From positions 1-64,000 of the forward strand of contig NZ_JAUSUJ010000019.1 of assembly GCF_030813915.1 (NCBI RefSeq): 64,000 nucleotides of DNA. The letters run 5' to 3'. Below, piece after piece: positions 2,023 through 57,303 of the stretch. This stretch comes from Rhodoplanes tepidamans. Its GTDB lineage: Bacteria > Pseudomonadota > Alphaproteobacteria > Rhizobiales > Xanthobacteraceae. The notes beneath the pieces are model-generated. The model was given only the letters and a program-made list of their open reading frames with translations, was not told the origin of the DNA and ran no database searches. Numbering within the stretch: position 1 is the first letter of the stretch; every line of letters begins with the position of its first letter. A program made the translations under genes and the position numbers.

Positions 2023-2556
2023 TCAGCCCTCGGTCGCCCAGAACCCGTCCTGCAGGGCGGCGGCTTCGTCTTCCAGCAGCGGGCCGATGACCGTGACGGG
2101 CCGCTGGCCGGCCGCGAAGACGGTGCGGCAGGGCAGGTCGAGCGTCGGGTTCTCCGGGTGGTCGCCGGTCTGCGCCTTGAGGTGGCGCTCGCTCTGGCCG
2201 TAGACGACGCGGCCGATGCCGGCCCAGTAGATGGCGCCGGCGCACATCGCGCAGGGCTCGGCCGAGGTGTAGAGCGTGCAGGTCGCGAGGAACCGCGGCG
2301 GGTGCGCCCGCGAGGCGCGGCTCGCCAGCAGACGCTCGGCATGCGCCGTCATGTCCCGGCCCTCGGCCGTGTAGCCGTTGCCCTGCTCCATCAGCACGCG
2401 GCCGTCGGGGCCGACCAGGATGGCGCCGAACGGATGGTCGCCGCCGTCGCGCGAGCGGCGGGCGACGTCGAAGGCCCGGCGCAGGAACCCCTCGTGGTCG
2501 AGTTCGGGCAGGGCGGCGCCCGTGGCATCGTCGCTCATGTCGTCGCTCCGGTTCAT
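2023..2556 (-). CDS. Nucleoside deaminase (CMP/dCMP deaminase fold)
   Basis: Zinc-dependent deaminase of 177 residues, probably acting on guanine, cytosine or another amino-heterocycle. It has the zinc and catalytic motif HAE at residues 72-74 and PCAMC at 101-105. The ATG at 2556 overlaps the stop of the permease gene by four bases (ATGA), which suggests translational coupling; an ATG at 2538 is the alternative. It is the last gene of the minus-strand operon, so its substrate may be the compound imported by the ABC transporter or a product made from it. The length and an insert before the C-terminus fit guanine-deaminase-like members rather than TadA, but I cannot fix the substrate. Confidence 0.85.
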   Translation of the reverse strand: MNRSDDMSDDATGAALPELDHEGFLRRAFDVARRSRDGGDHPFGAILVGPDGRVLMEQGNGYTAEGRDMTAHAERLLASRASRAHPPRFLATCTLYTSAEPCAMCAGAIYWAGIGRVVYGQSERHLKAQTGDHPENPTLDLPCRTVFAAGQRPVTVIGPLLEDEAAALQDGFWATEG

Positions 2557-3407
2557 CGCTCCGACTTCGGGAGCGACCACGGCACCAGCATCTTCTGCGC
2601 CAGCCCGACCAGGCGGAACAGCGCCAGGCTGATCGCCACCAGCACGACGAGCCCGGCGAAGGCGGCCGGGATCTTGAAGAACGAGGTCGAGAACAGGATG
2701 AAGAAGCCGAGCCCGCGCTCGGCGGCGACGAACTCGGCCACCACGGCGCCGATCACCGCGAGCGTGGTCGAGATCTTCAGGGCCGAGACCAGGTGCGGCA
2801 CCGCGTAGGGCAGGCGGATGTGGAGGATCTCGCGGCTGCGCCCGGCGCGCAGCGAGCGCGACAGCTCGATCAGCTCCTCCGGTGTCGACAGCAGGCCCGT
2901 CACGGTCGAGACGACGATCGGGAAGAACGTGATCAGGAACGTGATGACGACGCGCGGCAGGTCGGAGGCGCCGAGCGTCACCACGATGATCGGCGCCACC
3001 GCGACGATCGGGGTCGACTGCACCACGACCAGCATCGGATAGAGGGTGCGCGACAGCAGCCGCGACGAGGCGAGCGCCACGGCGAGCGGCACCGACACGG
3101 CGATGGCGAGCAGGTATCCCATCAGCGCCACCCGCAGCGTCGCCCAGATGTGGCCGAGCCAGACCTCGGCCGGCGTCGCGAGGCCGGCCGCCACGATGGC
3201 GCTGGGGGCGGGGAGCAGGAAGGACGGGATGGCGAACACCCACGTCGCGGCCTCCCACACGGCGAGCGCGGCCGCGAAGGCGAGCGCCGGCGCGAAGCGG
3301 TCGAGCCAGGCGAGGAGTGTCGTCCCCACGCCCGCGGCCGGCGCCGTCGGCGCGGCGTCGGTCTCGGGAAGGGTCGTCTCGGGAGCGGCTGCGGTGGTGT
3401 CGCTCAT
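2553..3407 (-). CDS. ABC transporter permease, SsuC/TauC family
   Basis: Inner-membrane permease of 284 residues with about six hydrophobic helices after a soluble Ala/Thr-rich N-terminus. The cytoplasmic EAA loop is visible as SLRAGRSREILHIRLP, the segment that contacts the ATPase. The ATG at 3407 lies 7 bases after the ATPase stop; a further ATG at 3470 would overlap that gene. With the preceding ATPase and the NMT1-type binding protein it forms a complete importer of the nitrate/sulfonate/pyrimidine class. This family transports small organic compounds, and the sequence does not fix which one. Confidence 0.92.
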   Translation of the reverse strand: MSDTTAAAPETTLPETDAAPTAPAAGVGTTLLAWLDRFAPALAFAAALAVWEAATWVFAIPSFLLPAPSAIVAAGLATPAEVWLGHIWATLRVALMGYLLAIAVSVPLAVALASSRLLSRTLYPMLVVVQSTPIVAVAPIIVVTLGASDLPRVVITFLITFFPIVVSTVTGLLSTPEELIELSRSLRAGRSREILHIRLPYAVPHLVSALKISTTLAVIGAVVAEFVAAERGLGFFILFSTSFFKIPAAFAGLVVLVAISLALFRLVGLAQKMLVPWSLPKSER

Positions 3408-3414
3408 GGCGGCC

Positions 3415-4194
3415 TCAGGCGGCGGCGGGGCGGGAGAAGAGGGTGCCGCGGATGTGATCGGCGAGCGCATGGAAGGTCGGATCCGTCAGGGTGGCGAGGG
3501 AGCGCGGGCGCGGCAGCGGCACGTCGAGGATCTCCCGCACGCGGCCGGGACGCGGCGTCATCACCACGATGCGGTCGGCGAGCAGCACCGCCTCGGGGAT
3601 CGAATGGGTGATGAACAGCACGGTCTTCGGCCGCTCCGACCAGATGCGCAGGAGCTCGAAGCTCATCTCGTCGCGGGTGAGCGCGTCGAGCGCCGAGAAC
3701 GGCTCGTCCATCAGCAGGATGTCGGGATCGAGCAGCAGGGCGCGGGCGATCGCGACGCGCTGCTGCATGCCGCCGGAGAGCTCGTCGATGCGCTTGTCGG
3801 CGAAGTCGGCGAGGTCGACGAGCGCGAGGAGCTCGCGGGCCCGCGCCCGTTCCGCCTCGCCCACCCGCCCGTACTTGTGGCGCATCGGGAACGTGACGTT
3901 GCCGAGCACGTCGAACCACGGCAGCAGGGTGGGGCGCTGGAACACGATGCCGATCTCGTCGCGCGGCTCGGTCACCGGCATGCCCCAGATCTCGACCGAT
4001 CCGCGGGTCGGCGCGATCAGGCCGGCGATCAGCCGCAGCAGCGTGGACTTGCCGCAGCCCGACGGCCCGAGCACGGCGACGAACTCGTGCCGGCCGATGT
4101 CGAACGAGACGCCGTCGAGCGCCGTGACGGCGCGCCCGGCCGCGGTCTCGAAGACCTGGCCCAGTCGCTTGAAGGAGATCACCGGGGGCTGCAT
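3415..4194 (-). CDS. ABC transporter ATP-binding protein, SsuB/TauB family
   Basis: ATPase subunit of 259 residues that powers the adjacent permease. Walker A GPSGCGKST is at about residues 43-51. The Q-loop (VFQRP), signature LSGGMQQR and Walker B LLMDEPFSALD follow in normal order. It is encoded between the binding-protein gene (239 bases upstream, with a palindromic repeat in the gap) and the permease (7 bases downstream). Family members energise uptake of taurine, alkanesulfonates, nitrate or thiamin-pyrimidine precursors. Confidence 0.95.
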   Translation of the reverse strand: MQPPVISFKRLGQVFETAAGRAVTALDGVSFDIGRHEFVAVLGPSGCGKSTLLRLIAGLIAPTRGSVEIWGMPVTEPRDEIGIVFQRPTLLPWFDVLGNVTFPMRHKYGRVGEAERARARELLALVDLADFADKRIDELSGGMQQRVAIARALLLDPDILLMDEPFSALDALTRDEMSFELLRIWSERPKTVLFITHSIPEAVLLADRIVVMTPRPGRVREILDVPLPRPRSLATLTDPTFHALADHIRGTLFSRPAAA

Positions 4195-4247
4195 GGTCGG
4201 TCCTTTCGTGATCGACGAGAGACGGGATCCGGCTGATCGGTTCGGTG

Positions 4248-4354
4248 GTCATTCCGGGGCGGCGCGCAGCGCCGAACCCGGACTCCAGCCGCGACCACGG
4301 AGCTTGCCGCTGGAGTCCGGGTTCGAGTGCCTGCGGCACTCGCCCCGGAATGAC
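4248..4354. repeat. Intergenic palindromic repeat, copy 2
   Basis: A 107-base copy with the same GTCATTCCGGGGC and GCCCCGGAATGAC ends. It lies inside the operon, between the binding-protein gene and the ATPase gene. Inner arms read GAACCCGGACTCCAG and CTGGAGTCCGGGTTC, so both arms carry matching changes relative to copy 1. At this position a stable hairpin could protect the upstream message and raise binding-protein expression over ATPase and permease; this is inference. Confidence 0.85.
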
Positions 4355-4432
4355 GGCGACCGATCCCTCGGCAACGGCACGATACGGTCGCGGGTCACGG
4401 CGGCCGCGACCGGCCGCCGTGAGCACGGCCGC

Positions 4433-5425
4433 TCACTTCGCCGCGGCGCGGTCCACCGCGGTCTCGGGGTCGAGCTTGTCGAGCGGCAGGTTCTGGGCCT
4501 TCGCCACCCACTCCCAGGACGTCTTCAGGAGCTTGGCGTCGAAGGCGCCGTCGCCGTCGCGCCTGGAGACGTCGTTGACCATCAGCGGGATCGACGAGAC
4601 GAACTGCTTCTCGGCGGTGGCGACGTCGATCTCCGGCACCATCGCCTTGAGGGCCTCGGCCGCGGCCTTCGGGTCGGCGATCGCCATCCGGGTCGCCTCG
4701 GCATAGGCCTTGACGAACTTCTTCACGACGGCGGGGCGGTCCCTGAGCATCTTCTCGGAGACGAACAGCGACAGGCCGTAGCCGTCATAGCCGTAGTTCG
4801 ACCACGGCAGCACCACGAGCTTCTTCTTCGCCTCGCCGACCGGCCCTTCGAAGGCGGCGGCGACCGTCACCCAGTTGATGGTGGCGACGACCTGGCCGGC
4901 CGCCAGCATGGGGGCGAGCGCGCCGGGATCGACCTTCAGCATCTGGACGCTCGCCGGATCGATGCCGTTCGCGCGCAGCACCAGCGGCCACGCCACGTTG
5001 GAGGACGAGAAGGTCGCGGTCGCGATCTTCTTGCCGGCGACGTCCTTCAGGCTGGTGATGCCGGAGCCCTCGGTGGTGAAGATCGCGTCGGCCTGCTTGG
5101 TGTAGATCGCGTACACGGCCTTCACGGGCACGTTCGTCTCGGCCTTGGCCTGCAGCAGCGCGGCGAGCCCGCCGGTGCCGATGTCGGCCGCGCCGGTGCC
5201 GAGCTTGGTGACGACGTCGCTCGAGCCGCGGCCGCTCTGGATCGTCACCTCGAGGCCCTCGGCGGCGAACAGGCCCTTCTTCACCCCGAGATAGGGCACC
5301 GCCTTGTCGCCGGCCGGCAGCCAGTCGATCATGAAGGTGACCTTTTCGGCGGCCCGGCCGGGGGTGCCGAGCAGCACGGCCAGCGACAGCGCCAGCACGG
5401 TGATCCGGGTCAGTCTGCCTGTCAT
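4433..5425 (-). CDS. ABC transporter substrate-binding protein, NMT1/THI5-like
   Basis: Periplasmic solute-binding protein of 330 residues. Residues 1-26 form a signal peptide with a cleavage site after GRA. The mature part starts with VTFMIDWLPAGDKAVPYLGV, the usual opening of NMT1/SsuA-type proteins that bind pyrimidines, sulfonates or aromatic acids. The ATG at 5425 overlaps the stop of the alpha/beta hydrolase gene (ATGA). It is the ligand-recognition part of the ABC importer encoded downstream. A ThiY-like pyrimidine binder is possible, but the Cys-rich motif of some THI5 relatives is not present. Confidence 0.9.
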   Translation of the reverse strand: MTGRLTRITVLALSLAVLLGTPGRAAEKVTFMIDWLPAGDKAVPYLGVKKGLFAAEGLEVTIQSGRGSSDVVTKLGTGAADIGTGGLAALLQAKAETNVPVKAVYAIYTKQADAIFTTEGSGITSLKDVAGKKIATATFSSSNVAWPLVLRANGIDPASVQMLKVDPGALAPMLAAGQVVATINWVTVAAAFEGPVGEAKKKLVVLPWSNYGYDGYGLSLFVSEKMLRDRPAVVKKFVKAYAEATRMAIADPKAAAEALKAMVPEIDVATAEKQFVSSIPLMVNDVSRRDGDGAFDAKLLKTSWEWVAKAQNLPLDKLDPETAVDRAAAK

Positions 5426-6351
5426 GGAGTCCTCTCTCGCTGTGGAGCCTTGGCGGCGAAGTCGTCGGGGGCGAAGTCTCGGGTCGTGAAGTCTCGGGTC
5501 GTGAAGTCTTGGGCGGTGAAGTCTTGGGCGGTGAAGTCGTCGGCGCGGCGGTCCGCCGCCGCGGTCGTCGTCGTGAGAAACGGCACGATCGCCTCCGCCA
5601 GCAGCCGCGGCGCCACGAGCTGTGGCGCGTGCCCGGTGGGCAGCGACACCACGGCGGCGCCCGGCACCAGCGCCTGCATCCGGCGCTGCAAGATCGGGAC
5701 CACGGAGCGGTCGGCGGTCGCCTCGACATAGAGGCGCGGCACGCGGCCGAAGCGCGCGGCGGTGAGGCGCGGCCGCACGGCGCGGCCGCCCTCCGGCTGG
5801 GCGGTGAGCTGTCGCGCCGCGCTGCGGGCCGCCGCGGCGTCGCAGTCGTGATAGAAGAAGGCGAGCGCCGCCGCCTCCGGCACCGTGCTGCTCGCGCGGT
5901 CCGCCGACCACACGAGATGCGGCCCGATGCCTGCGGCCTCGGGATGCTCGGCGATCACGTCGCGCACCAGATCGGCATAGGCCATGCCGTCGGGCAGCAT
6001 CATGCCGGCGACGTAGACGATGCGCGCGACGCCGTCGGGATCGGCCTCCGCCACCTGCGAGGCGACGAGGCCGCCGCCCGAATGGGCGACCAGCGACACC
6101 GGCCGGCCGCGGCGGGCGATCGCCGCCCGCACGTGCTCGACATAGAGATCGAGCGACACCGGCCGGGGCGCCGGCGTCGTGCCGTTGCCGGGCAGGTCGA
6201 TCGCCTCGAAGGCGAGACCGGCGGCGGCGAGCTCCGGCACGAAGGCGTCCCACGCCCAGGCGCCCTGCCAGGCGCCGTGGATCAGCAGCACCGGATCGGC
6301 GTCCGTCGGATGCTGGCGCGCGGGGGCGGCCGCGCCGGCGACGGCCCTCAC
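5422..6351 (-). CDS. Alpha/beta hydrolase with pentapeptide-repeat tail
   Basis: Serine hydrolase or esterase of 309 residues. The oxyanion-hole motif LLIHGAWQGAWAW is near the N-terminus, the nucleophile elbow is AHSGGG, and a late GHAPQ supplies the likely catalytic His. It resembles the short esterases and methylesterase-like alpha/beta hydrolases. The GTG start at 6351 overlaps the oxygenase stop (GTGA), and the stop overlaps the next start (ATGA). The C-terminus is odd: six 15-base tandem units encode six successive pentapeptides ending in DF, an acidic low-complexity tail with no role in the fold that I can recognise. Confidence 0.85.
   Translation of the reverse strand: MRAVAGAAAPARQHPTDADPVLLIHGAWQGAWAWDAFVPELAAAGLAFEAIDLPGNGTTPAPRPVSLDLYVEHVRAAIARRGRPVSLVAHSGGGLVASQVAEADPDGVARIVYVAGMMLPDGMAYADLVRDVIAEHPEAAGIGPHLVWSADRASSTVPEAAALAFFYHDCDAAAARSAARQLTAQPEGGRAVRPRLTAARFGRVPRLYVEATADRSVVPILQRRMQALVPGAAVVSLPTGHAPQLVAPRLLAEAIVPFLTTTTAAADRRADDFTAQDFTAQDFTTRDFTTRDFAPDDFAAKAPQRERTP
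5458..5547 (-). repeat. Six tandem 15-base units inside the hydrolase gene
   Basis: Six head-to-tail 15-base units each begin with GAAGTC on the plus strand. Units 2 and 3 are identical, as are units 4 and 5, which points to recent stepwise duplication. The unit is a multiple of three, so copy changes keep the frame. On the minus strand they encode RADDF, TAQDF, TAQDF, TTRDF, TTRDF and APDDF. Confidence 0.9.
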
Positions 6352-7328
6352 GCGTAGGTCCGGGCGTACATGTCCTTCAGATGCGCCTCGACCGTGGTCG
6401 GCGCGTATGTGGGCGTCTCGCCGGCCGCCAGGCAGGTCGGGATGCATTCGATCGGCTGGTCCGGATTGCCGGTGTAGAAGAACGGCACCGAGTAGCGCTC
6501 GCGGCCCGACACGTTGACGACTCGATGGAGCGTCGAGCGATAGCGGCCGTTGGTCCAGCGGGCGATCAGGTCGCCGAGATTGACCACGTAGGCGCCGGGG
6601 ATCGGCGGGGCGTGGATCCAGGTGCCGGCCGCCTCGTCCCACACCTGCAGGCCGCCGACGTCGCCCTGCAGCAGCAGCGTCAGGCTGCCGAAGTCGGTGT
6701 GGGCGCCGCAGCCCTTCTCGCCCGGGGCGGCGTTGGCCGGCTGCGGCGGATAGTGCAGGAGCCGCAGCGTCGCCAGCGGGTCGCGGTCGAACACCGCGAA
6801 GTGGTTCTCCGGCAGATCGAGCGACAGGGCGATGCCGCGCATCAGCCGGGCGCCGAGATCGAGCATCGCTGCGAAATAGGCCTGCATGGTCGGGCGGAAG
6901 CCGGGCAGGTCGGCGGGCCACTGGTTGGGGCCGCGGTTGAACCGCCTCGCGGCGACCCGCGGGTCGTCGAGCGGCAGGTCGGGGCCGATGTAGAAGCCCT
7001 CCTTGAGGTCGGGCGGGGCGCCGGGCTCGAGCGTCTGCGCCTTCAGCGGCTCGTAGCCGCGGTTGCAGAAGGACAGCGCCATGTCGACCGCCTGCTTGCG
7101 CGCCATCGGCTGGTCGAAGAACGCCTTGGATTCGGCCAGCACGGCAGCGATCAGGCCCTGCGGCACGCCGTGCCCGATGACGTAGAAGAATCCCTTGTCG
7201 AGGCAGGCGGCGCGCAGCGCGGCGCCGACCGCGGCGCGGTCCTCCGGGCGCGACGAGCTGAGGCCGGTGGCGTCGATGATGGGCAGTTGCGCGTCGGCGA
7301 CGCGTACGGCGTCGAGGGTGGCCGCCAT
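6348..7328 (-). CDS. Isopenicillin N synthase-family 2OG-Fe(II) dioxygenase
   Basis: Non-haem iron oxygenase of 326 residues, predicted to hydroxylate or oxidise a small molecule using 2-oxoglutarate. The N-terminal DIOX_N region (residues 15-125) contains KGFFYVIGHGV. Iron ligands are H210 and D212 in HTDFGSLTLL and H268 in STLHR. The 2-oxoglutarate-binding Arg-x-Ser is R278-Y-S280. The ATG at 7328 is preceded by GGAGGAG at 8 bases. It is the first structural gene of the operon, 95 bases after the LysR gene. Bacterial homologues include xanthine, ethylene-forming and gibberellin-type oxygenases; the substrate here is unknown. Confidence 0.92.
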   Translation of the reverse strand: MAATLDAVRVADAQLPIIDATGLSSSRPEDRAAVGAALRAACLDKGFFYVIGHGVPQGLIAAVLAESKAFFDQPMARKQAVDMALSFCNRGYEPLKAQTLEPGAPPDLKEGFYIGPDLPLDDPRVAARRFNRGPNQWPADLPGFRPTMQAYFAAMLDLGARLMRGIALSLDLPENHFAVFDRDPLATLRLLHYPPQPANAAPGEKGCGAHTDFGSLTLLLQGDVGGLQVWDEAAGTWIHAPPIPGAYVVNLGDLIARWTNGRYRSTLHRVVNVSGRERYSVPFFYTGNPDQPIECIPTCLAAGETPTYAPTTVEAHLKDMYARTYA

Positions 7329-7423
7329 GTCGAGGTCTCCTCCGTGGGTACGGGAAAACCCTAAGCGGCGGCGCAGCGTTCGCGAAAGAAGAGAAATGGC
7401 CTCGGGCCGATGCCGAAACGGCA

Positions 7424-8347
7424 TCAGCCTCGGGCGTTCTCCAGCTGCTCGCGGGCGGCGAGCGCCCCGGCGAGGATCTGCAGGAAGAGATCCAGCACGG
7501 CGGGCAGCGAGCGGCCGGCCCGGACATAGACGCCGAGGTCGCTCCACACCGGCCCGCCATTGTCGAGCGGCACGTGGACGAGCCGGCCGTCGGCGAGCTG
7601 GCGCTCGAGGCCGATCCGGGTCTGGAACGCGATGCCGGCGCCGCGCTCGGCGAGCTCGCGCATCAGCTCGATCGACGAGGCGGTGACGCAGGGCTCGAAC
7701 GAGCGGGGCAGGCGGGCGAGCGCCGGCCCGAGCAGCTGGTTGATGGAGAGCTCGGGCGTCGCCAGGATGATCGGGTGGTCGAGGCAGGCGGCGAGGCTGA
7801 CGGTCCTGCGGCTCGCCAGCGGGTGGTCCGGCGGCACGATGGCGCCGAGCTTGAACCGGCTCACCGCCACCTGGCGCAGCTCCGGCGCCCGGCGCAGCGC
7901 GAAGGCGACCCCGACGTCGGCGTCGCCGGCCGCGATGGCGTCGGGAATCGCGAACGACCCCATGGTCGACACCGCGATGGTGACGCGCGGTGCGCGCGCC
8001 CGCAGCGTGCCGATCACCTCGGGCAGCAGGGCGCCGCACACGCCCTCCACGGTGCTGACGGCGATGTGGCCGGCGCGGGCGCCGCGCAGCCCCTCGATGT
8101 CGGAGCGGGCGCGTTCGAGGTCCTGCAGCACCACGAGAGCGTGGCGGGCGATCGCCTCGCCGGCCGCGGTGAGCTTCAGCCCGGCCGGCAGCCGCTCGAA
8201 CAGCGGCGCGCCGATCTCGGCCTCGAGCTTGACGATCTGCCGGTTGACGGCCGAGGAGGCGACGTTGAGCCGGCGGGCCGCCTCGCGGATCGAGCCGGCC
8301 CGCCGCACGGCGTCGAAATACACGATGGCGGCCGAATGGATGCGCAC
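7424..8347 (-). CDS. LysR-family transcriptional regulator
   Basis: DNA-binding regulator of 307 residues. The winged helix-turn-helix occupies roughly residues 5-63 (GSIREAARRLNVASSAVNRQ), followed by a periplasmic-binding-like effector domain. It is encoded on the same strand directly upstream of the oxygenase gene and ends 95 bases before it. This suggests that it controls the operon in response to the transported compound. LysR genes are more often divergent from their targets; here the promoter could be upstream of the regulator (8348-8502) or in the 95-base gap. Confidence 0.93.
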   Translation of the reverse strand: MRIHSAAIVYFDAVRRAGSIREAARRLNVASSAVNRQIVKLEAEIGAPLFERLPAGLKLTAAGEAIARHALVVLQDLERARSDIEGLRGARAGHIAVSTVEGVCGALLPEVIGTLRARAPRVTIAVSTMGSFAIPDAIAAGDADVGVAFALRRAPELRQVAVSRFKLGAIVPPDHPLASRRTVSLAACLDHPIILATPELSINQLLGPALARLPRSFEPCVTASSIELMRELAERGAGIAFQTRIGLERQLADGRLVHVPLDNGGPVWSDLGVYVRAGRSLPAVLDLFLQILAGALAAREQLENARG

Positions 8348-52959: not shown

Positions 52960-53062
52960 GTCATTCCGGGGCGCGCCAAAGGCGCGAACCCGGAATCCAG
53001 CGGCAGAGTGTGTCTTCGTGGCTGGATTCCGGATCCGGCGCGGTGCGCCGGTCCGGAATGAC
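52960..53062. repeat. Intergenic palindromic repeat, copy 4
   Basis: A 103-base copy starting GTCATTCCGGGGC and ending GGTCCGGAATGAC, 19 bases after pyrG. Inner arms are CCCGGAATCCAG and CTGGATTCCGG. The right-hand GCGCCGG segment is diverged. Confidence 0.85.
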
Positions 53063-57200: not shown

Positions 57201-57303
57201 GTCATTCCGGGGCGCGCTGAAAGCGCGGGCCCGGAATCCAGCCCCGCGCTCCGAGATCGCGGCTGGATTCCGGGTTCGCCGCTGCGCGGTGCCCCGGAAT
57301 GAC
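57201..57303. repeat. Intergenic palindromic repeat, copy 5
   Basis: A 103-base copy with GTCATTCCGGGGC and GCCCCGGAATGAC ends and inner arms CCCGGAATCCAGCC and GGCTGGATTCCGGG. It fills the gap between the convergent AEC and hydroxylase genes and could end both transcripts. Confidence 0.85.

Follow-up and report, generated by a model that had tools for sequence, protein, structure and literature searches.

A conserved oxygenase-importer-deaminase operon of Rhodoplanes tepidamans and its possible role in the scavenging of modified purine bases

What does a compact set of seven genes on one strand of a Rhodoplanes tepidamans contig do for its host? The set lies at positions 2023-8347 of the window, by which we mean the whole 64,000-nucleotide stretch of DNA analysed (NCBI RefSeq assembly GCF_030813915.1, contig NZ_JAUSUJ010000019.1, positions 1 to 64,000). 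It encodes a LysR-family regulator, a 2-oxoglutarate (2OG)-Fe(II) oxygenase, an alpha/beta hydrolase, an NMT1-type binding protein, the ATPase and permease of an ATP-binding cassette (ABC) transporter, and a base deaminase. We consider it quite probable that this operon serves nucleobase catabolism, and likely that it belongs to the purine branch. We propose, more specifically, that it scavenges a modified purine base: import would be followed by 2OG-dependent oxidation (with N-demethylation as the likeliest form), deamination and entry into the urate route. This proposal is tentative, with a chance that approaches even without reaching it. N-demethylation as the chemistry of the oxygenase is a possibility that we rate somewhat short of even. 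The gene set, its conservation, the intact active-site residues and the nucleobase-gene neighbourhoods were read from sequence, and from these we infer the substrate, the order of the steps and the demethylation. The operon is probably a variant of purine catabolism with a new oxygenase activity. An earlier reading of the window, made from the sequence only, was aware of no described pathway that has this exact gene set; this holds within the open-access literature searched, in which we also found no paper on the breakdown of RNA-derived methylguanine in bacteria. To our knowledge, little is known of bacterial routes for modified nucleobases beyond the Rieske enzymes of caffeine degradation.

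In the proposed route, the NMT1-type binding protein and the ABC transporter would import the modified base. The oxygenase would then hydroxylate an N-methyl group, which would leave as formaldehyde, for example from 7-methylated or otherwise N-methylated guanine or xanthine. The deaminase would convert the guanine-type product, or methylguanine itself, to a xanthine-type base, and this base would enter the xanthine-urate-allantoin route encoded elsewhere in the genome. The alpha/beta hydrolase would act on some intermediate, and the LysR protein would sense the base or an intermediate. N-demethylation is favoured by the company of ndmCDE-like genes and formaldehyde genes in which related oxygenases are found, and by the fact that other genes mostly take care of plain xanthine and guanine. 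A bolder version is that the oxygenase founds a class of 2OG-Fe(II) purine N-demethylases without Rieske partners and that the operon is a complete importer-demethylase-deaminase route for RNA-derived methylguanine; we regard it as improbable. Soils regain nitrogen and carbon through the turnover of modified nucleobases (from RNA caps, tRNA, rRNA and plant methylxanthines). If the proposed route is real, it would provide a Rieske-independent purine oxygenase and a specific importer family, as well as a means of marking such catabolism across proteobacteria, and it would bear on the 2OG oxygenase genes found beside ndmCDE-like genes, including that on the caffeine plasmid of Paraburkholderia caffeinilytica.

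Relatives of the oxygenase were collected from a one-genome-per-species scan (45 loci) and from 149 genomes of the window's family (20 wider regions). Sixty loci were scored for operon genes and purine markers; in 50 of them the oxygenase is at least 53% identical to the window's, and the other 10 hold distant paralogues. The 50 leave out the window itself, L086-L088 (our locus numbers; another 2OG oxygenase group, without a match to the window's oxygenase) and L091 (judged by length and place to be the same contig as L002), and they retain incomplete contigs (L018, L019, L028, L038 and others). The hydrolase gene is found at 36 of the 50 loci, the deaminase at 14, a complete importer at 15, deaminase plus importer at 14, and LysR (counted at 44% identity or more in the same stretch) at 21. 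At the same thresholds, hydrolase, deaminase, importer and LysR are found at none of the 10 distant-paralogue loci. Nine named families of alpha-, beta- and gammaproteobacteria are represented among the 14 full-set loci, which also include a betaproteobacterium without further classification and two further genomes of the window's family. The order oxygenase-hydrolase-binding protein-ATPase-permease-deaminase, on one strand, recurs at 10 other alpha- and gammaproteobacterial loci (L002, L012, L016, L023, L040, L041, L043, L045, L076 and L077), and all six structural genes are present but rearranged at L017, L020, L022 and L025. Six family genomes have an oxygenase that reaches 60% identity; in four of these, the window's included, it occurs together with the deaminase. 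Mapped on a tree of 39 oxygenases, the distribution of the full set takes 8 changes (gains or losses), of which well-supported branches force at least 5, and only 9 of 500 shuffles were as low as 8 changes. From this scatter and clustering, we take the gene set to be ancient or mobile and often to have lost members. The sequence-only reading had called for a search for co-occurrence of oxygenase, hydrolase and deaminase across genomes, and would have been given up had oxygenase and deaminase never stood together; the co-occurrence was found, at 14 of the 50 loci for that pair. Its inference that the set imports a heterocyclic compound and breaks it down survives in part: the genes form a conserved unit for the import and, most likely, the breakdown of an N-heterocycle, with purines or other nucleobases indicated by neighbours and genome content, whereas the ring opening and the ester or amide hydrolysis that it proposed stay conjectural. 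At one locus, from a metagenome-assembled Breoghania (L040 9001-9953), the oxygenase and several neighbours appear in broken frames; the related L012 is intact.

Neighbouring genes were found by clustering of open reading frames (ORFs) across loci and named by curated models run on representatives. A nucleobase-type marker (purine, molybdenum (Mo)-hydroxylase or ring-amide) is present at 26 of the 50 loci versus 3 of the 10 distant-paralogue loci, and at 9 of the 14 full-set loci. The neighbours named in this way are 8-oxoguanine deaminase, PuuE (allantoinase), UraD (2-oxo-4-hydroxy-4-carboxy-5-ureidoimidazoline (OHCU) decarboxylase), HpxZ, allantoicase, PbuX (xanthine permease), an AtzE-family amidase, allantoate amidohydrolase, XdhB, XdhC and HpxO. 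The operon of Alloalcanivorax (L023) comes immediately after genes for PuuE, UraD, a PuuD-like protein (named by eye, without an NCBIfam match), allantoicase, ureidoglycolate lyase and 8-oxoguanine deaminase, and in Alkalilimnicola (L045) it lies between XdhB-XdhC plus a BMP-type importer and HpxZ-AtzE. A three-gene Mo-hydroxylase follows the deaminase at L012, L016, L040 and L043; its large subunit at L016 is below the xanthine dehydrogenase cut-offs, and the substrate there may differ from xanthine. The surroundings of the deaminase were also surveyed at 20 separate loci from the family search. BMP-type importer genes lie beside it at 13 of them, 8-oxoguanine-deaminase-like genes at 10, allantoate-amidohydrolase-like genes at 8, a Mo-hydroxylase at 8 and an AtzD-family gene at 1; six of the 20 carry no purine-type marker. 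Cyanuric-acid-hydrolase/barbiturase-family genes, with no obvious purine role, are found near the oxygenase or deaminase at L021, L024, L026, L039 and L108.

OHCU decarboxylase, a marker of urate breakdown, is encoded by all 15 operon genomes, by 17 of 18 further oxygenase genomes and by each of the six family genomes whose oxygenase reaches 60% identity; as background, it occurs in 85 of 149 genomes (57%) across the window's family and in 4 of 14 named controls. A Mo-hydroxylase domain of at least 260 bits, a Pfam domain not specific for xanthine dehydrogenase, is found in 14 of the 15 operon genomes (Alloalcanivorax is the exception). GuaD-type guanine deaminase scores above its cut-off in 9 of the 15, the window's genome (6.86 Mb) not among them. 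Most operon genomes probably already handle guanine and xanthine, which hints at another, modified base as the target of the operon.

The oxygenase is of the isopenicillin-N-synthase-like type and carries its HxD...H and RxS motifs. The Fe ligands H210, D212 and H268 and the 2OG-binding R278 and S280 are invariant in an alignment of 34 of the sequences gathered; the enzyme of Rhodoplanes elegans DSM 11907 is 92% identical to the window's. The nearest solved sequences and structures (39-44% identity) are 6jyv, an oxygenase of Pseudomonas aeruginosa PAO1 which we take to be locus PA0147, and 9ovh, an ancestral ethylene-forming enzyme; both have Trp at the position where the window clade has N89. 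The fungal thymine-7-hydroxylase (5c3p-5c3s; 30-35% identity) shares fold, length and the Fe and 2OG residues. Its substrate residues are given, in part of the text of PMC4787775, as Asn87, Glu122, Arg190, Tyr217, Phe292 and Asn294, with Asn87 contacting thymine O2. Four of the six have counterparts in the window oxygenase (N89, R189, F213 in place of Tyr217, and F284), and the O2-contacting Asn, common to both enzymes, is missing in four other relatives compared. Glu122 is replaced by Y113 and Asn294 by T286. With two of six pocket residues different, we rejected the assignment as a true thymine hydroxylase, an enzyme which, unlike this one, is not part of a bacterial operon. In a thymine-hydroxylase-like pose, the six-membered ring of the purine would lie between F284 and F213 with N89 on the 2-position, and N7 and its methyl would reach the iron at the place of thymine's methyl.

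A further link to purine demethylation comes from plasmids. Oxygenases 58-59% identical to the window's are found on five Pseudomonas plasmids; two of these records were opened, with one each from Acinetobacter, Moraxella, Klebsiella and Paraburkholderia, and both Pseudomonas records contain ndmCDE-like genes, HpxO and NCS2. On pKF715A the neighbours of the oxygenase encode an NCS2 symporter, a Tsx-like porin, a second 2OG oxygenase, a glutathione S-transferase (GST), a TIM-barrel protein and LysR, with a BMP binding protein, HpxO and a Rieske oxygenase also near. The same plasmid has a split architecture: a 585-residue Rieske + NAD-binding + Fer2 protein, a 282-residue oxygenase without a Rieske domain, and the GST. 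Such a split into Rieske-reductase fusion, Rieske-less oxygenase and GST is described, in part of the text of PMC4408171, as unique to NdmC, NdmD and NdmE, the 7-methylxanthine N7-demethylase. Our label ndmCDE-like rests on this architecture and on similarity to plasmid genes of P. caffeinilytica CF1 (58, 45 and 62%). The plasmid pPp1290 resembles pKF715A, with its ndmD-like reductase gene annotated in three pieces (L132 6826-8581). This P. putida gene may be broken; both 2OG oxygenase genes of pPp1290 are annotated whole.

The CF1 plasmid carries the caffeine genes of its strain, according to part of the text of PMC10380055. This plasmid, p1, also encodes a sister-type 2OG oxygenase, 42% identical to the window's (L131 13974-14948), and in the same stretch FrmA, S-formylglutathione hydrolase and formate dehydrogenase. 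In Sphingobium L029 the gene for FrmA (formaldehyde dehydrogenase) comes immediately after that for a sister-type oxygenase; in Sphingobium L027 some 9 kb separate it from the oxygenase gene, and on the Acinetobacter plasmid the distance to a sister-type oxygenase is some 3 kb, with an insertion sequence (IS) element in between. On the Klebsiella plasmid a sister-type oxygenase (L133 9977-10954) directly follows an ndmE-like gene. At L127 5025-6014 the sister-type oxygenase is likewise directly beside an ndmE-like gene, and the two plasmids share a conserved TIM-barrel protein that is 88% identical between them. The ndmABCDE caffeine clusters are like the proposed route in purine-base uptake, oxygenase attack and entry into the xanthine-urate route, and 2OG oxygenases of the same branch (41-59% identity to the window's) lie in or beside the plasmid ndmCDE-like clusters. 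The window operon differs from ndm systems in having no Rieske oxygenase, reductase or GST; the Rieske oxygenases with NdmD, and NdmE for N7, that define such a system are absent from its seven genes and are present only at relatives' loci. Ndm systems use an NCS2 permease, whereas the operon has an NMT1 ABC importer; its alpha/beta hydrolase and base deaminase are extra. In the main text of the caffeine papers searched (including PMC4408171 and PMC10380055), the term 'oxoglutarate' does not appear.

Several observations weigh against a purine demethylation route. There is no formaldehyde gene among the seven genes of the operon, and FrmA is absent from every full-operon locus examined. PMC10380055 tabulates the genes of the Pseudomonas NCIM 5235 ndmABCDE cluster without any 2OG oxygenase, so caffeine N-demethylation needs none, and an N7-demethylase would be redundant where ndmCDE is present. 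The hydrolase is left without an assigned role in the route. Two thymine-7-hydroxylase pocket residues are not kept in the oxygenase. In Rhodoplanes the deaminase may be an ordinary guanine deaminase, since the window genome has no GuaD above the cut-off. The commonness of UraD in the family weakens its weight as support. Twenty-four of the 50 loci are markerless, including six Rhizobium/Ciceribacter loci in housekeeping-like surroundings, and among full-set loci no marker lies within about 9 kb at L002, L076 and L077, the closest relatives of the window, nor at L017 and L041. Several loci are near-copies, and the counts include close relatives that are not independent.

The closest rival to N-demethylation is hydroxylation of a purine ring carbon, such as C8 of xanthine or a methylxanthine, with the oxygenase as a Mo-free stand-in for xanthine dehydrogenase and the rest of the operon importing and deaminating. 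Mo-free xanthine hydroxylation is known from the fungal enzyme XanA. The thymine-hydroxylase-like pose would bring C8 as well as N7 close to the iron. Six oxygenase genomes have no strong Mo-hydroxylase domain, namely Alloalcanivorax (G152; 75 bits) and five Acinetobacter (none at E <= 1e-10), and the best such domain of one Sphingobium oxygenase genome reaches 195 bits. All seven keep OHCU decarboxylase, so that urate is probably made otherwise, and G152 suggests oxidation of xanthine without xanthine dehydrogenase. On the two P. putida plasmids the oxygenase adjoins HpxO (urate hydroxylase) or is one gene off, and no xanthine dehydrogenase is annotated in the stretch. However, 14 of the 15 operon genomes already have a strong Mo-hydroxylase domain, and the Mo-hydroxylase-poor genomes carry Rieske oxygenases that could do the same step; those of Acinetobacter and Sphingobium are close to each other, and those of G152 are 28-30% identical to them, two being near UraD. 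The oxygenase as sole replacement of xanthine dehydrogenase is weakened by these Rieske candidates, and we consider ring hydroxylation unlikely. The G152 genes form a purine island (L130) with OHCU decarboxylase and two Rieske oxygenases.

It is also conceivable, if quite unlikely, that the substrate is no nucleobase at all, and that the operon handles another N-heterocycle, an ester or a sulfonate (a plant alkaloid, an agrochemical or an aromatic amide), its purine neighbours being shared nitrogen-scavenging islands. The markerless loci fit this view, 24 of 50 and 5 of the 14 full-set loci, and so does the best solved match of the hydrolase, a pyrethroid hydrolase. NMT1 importers transport many compound types. 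The enrichment of markers at oxygenase loci over distant-paralogue loci, the link of the oxygenase to ndmCDE-like genes and HpxO, and the purine surroundings of the deaminase at 13 of its 20 other loci argue against it. The hydrolase has the Ser-Asp-His triad of its fold: S91, D214 and H241 (roles assigned by position and motif) are invariant in 14 sequences, with L004, L006, L021, L024 and L026 left out of the alignment. Those Acinetobacter and Sphingobium loci that hold several oxygenases yielded no relative of it, and the annotation of the opened P. putida and A. ursingii plasmids shows none close to the oxygenase; on the Moraxella plasmid an alpha/beta hydrolase, so named by annotation only, is about 7 kb away. 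The C-terminal tail of the window hydrolase (5422-5570) contains short tandem DFTxxD repeats, and most aligned relatives were cut before the tail.

The binding protein scores 129.5 bits against PF09084 (cut-off 20.5), which places it among NMT1/THI5-like proteins. In profile comparison (L040 and L076 left out of the alignment), its top solved relatives are 4nmy, THI5, THI13 and the formylaminopyrimidine binder 3ix1. The THI5/ThiY-type binders of pyrimidine precursors (4nmy, 4h65, 3ix1) are its nearest solved relatives, but the operon is unlike their systems in that no thiamine gene was recognised among its named neighbours, though no aimed search was made. A sulfonate, taurine or nitrate importer was rejected: binding protein and ATPase are under the NCBIfam cut-offs (SsuA family 96.6 against 163.5, taurine binder 49.8 against 304.25, ntrCD 220.1 against 291.8), the ATPase falling under those of the nitrate and taurine models. 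The sequence-only reading had compared the importer with NMT1/Ssu systems, carriers of pyrimidines, sulfonates or nitrogen heterocycles; this is now narrowed, with the binding protein nearest to the THI5/ThiY type and under the SsuA and taurine-binder cut-offs.

Were the operon to degrade a pyrimidine, the oxygenase would be an analogue of thymine or 5-methylcytosine hydroxylase, the deaminase would act on cytosine, and a Mo-hydroxylase and barbiturase route would take over from there. We find this very doubtful. The loss of Glu122 and Asn294 counts against it, and purine-specific genes are more widespread around oxygenase and deaminase. The deaminase has the zinc motifs of CDA-superfamily guanine deaminases (HAE, PCxxC); HAE (H72-A73-E74) and PCxMC (P101-C102-x-M104-C105) are invariant in 20 aligned sequences, L045 being left out for a stop in the translated stretch. 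In the profile ranking a mycobacterial deaminase comes first (1.9e-28), followed by guanine deaminase 1wkq (3.1e-24), tRNA adenosine deaminases (4.2e-22) and, at best, 1.5e-12 for cytosine deaminases; the step from guanine deaminase down to the tRNA enzymes is small. TadA, the tRNA adenosine deaminase, was rejected on its NCBIfam model (65.2 bits, cut-off 150). Zinc motifs and family are shared with 1wkq and with 5xko and 8wlw, the latter two presumably the mycobacterial deaminase, and the window deaminase differs from all three in falling into its own group (50-87% identity to it) without a solved member. A chance collection or single local insertion, to which the housekeeping-like flanks (named by eye) might point, is scarcely credible and is already contradicted by conservation: the gene order is repeated at 10 other loci spread over two classes, and three classes have the full set. 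The translational overlaps and the clustering on the oxygenase tree also speak against it.

The features of the region are listed in the table. Seven co-directed ORFs were read from the window sequence and their Pfam families agree, as the sequence-only reading had it, and the three four-base overlaps that it reported are present in the sequence: GTGA at 6351-6348 (oxygenase/hydrolase), ATGA at 5425-5422 (hydrolase/binding protein) and ATGA at 2556-2553 (permease/deaminase). ATPase and permease are 7 bases apart, and the larger gaps are of 238 bases (binding protein/ATPase) and 95 bases (LysR/oxygenase). All seven proteins exceed the curated Pfam cut-offs of the families named. The oxygenase had no NCBIfam match at all, and the other six proteins were under the cut-offs of the models listed (for ATPase and LysR, the best 25).

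Table. Genes and other features of the operon region (window coordinates).
Feature	Position	Strand	Remarks
LysR-family regulator	7424..8347	-	GTG start, first gene of the set; Pfam HTH_1 and LysR_substrate
Gap LysR/oxygenase, 95 bases	7329..7423	-	Terminator-like stem 7419-7399; GGAGG ahead of the oxygenase start; consensus match only
2OG-Fe(II) oxygenase, isopenicillin-N-synthase-like	6348..7328	-	Pfam DIOX_N (PF14226) and 2OG-FeII_Oxy (PF03171)
Alpha/beta hydrolase	5422..6351	-	GTG start inside oxygenase stop; Pfam Abhydrolase_6
NMT1/THI5-type periplasmic binding protein	4433..5425	-	Start inside hydrolase stop; Pfam NMT1 (PF09084)
Palindromic, repetitive extragenic palindrome (REP)-like element	4248..4354	.	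Within the 238-base gap between binding protein and ATPase
ABC transporter ATPase	3415..4194	-	Pfam ABC_tran
ABC transporter permease	2553..3407	-	Pfam BPD_transp_1
CDA-superfamily base deaminase	2023..2556	-	Start inside permease stop; Pfam dCMP_cyt_deam_1

LysR may be transcribed separately from the structural genes, given the 95-base gap with its terminator-like stem. The region has 4 matches to terminator-like stems, where shuffled sequence gives 1.6 on average, and a scan of the region found no sigma-70-like promoters. The flanks look like housekeeping genes, with tatD and a metallo-hydrolase on one side and rpsB, tsf and pyrH on the other (ORFs named by eye). Palindromic elements similar to that in the operon occur in the window at 4248-4354, 1062-1116, 52991-53031 and 57232-57272. 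Inverted arms were confirmed for the first two, and the other two are paired matches to a pattern that is little above chance.

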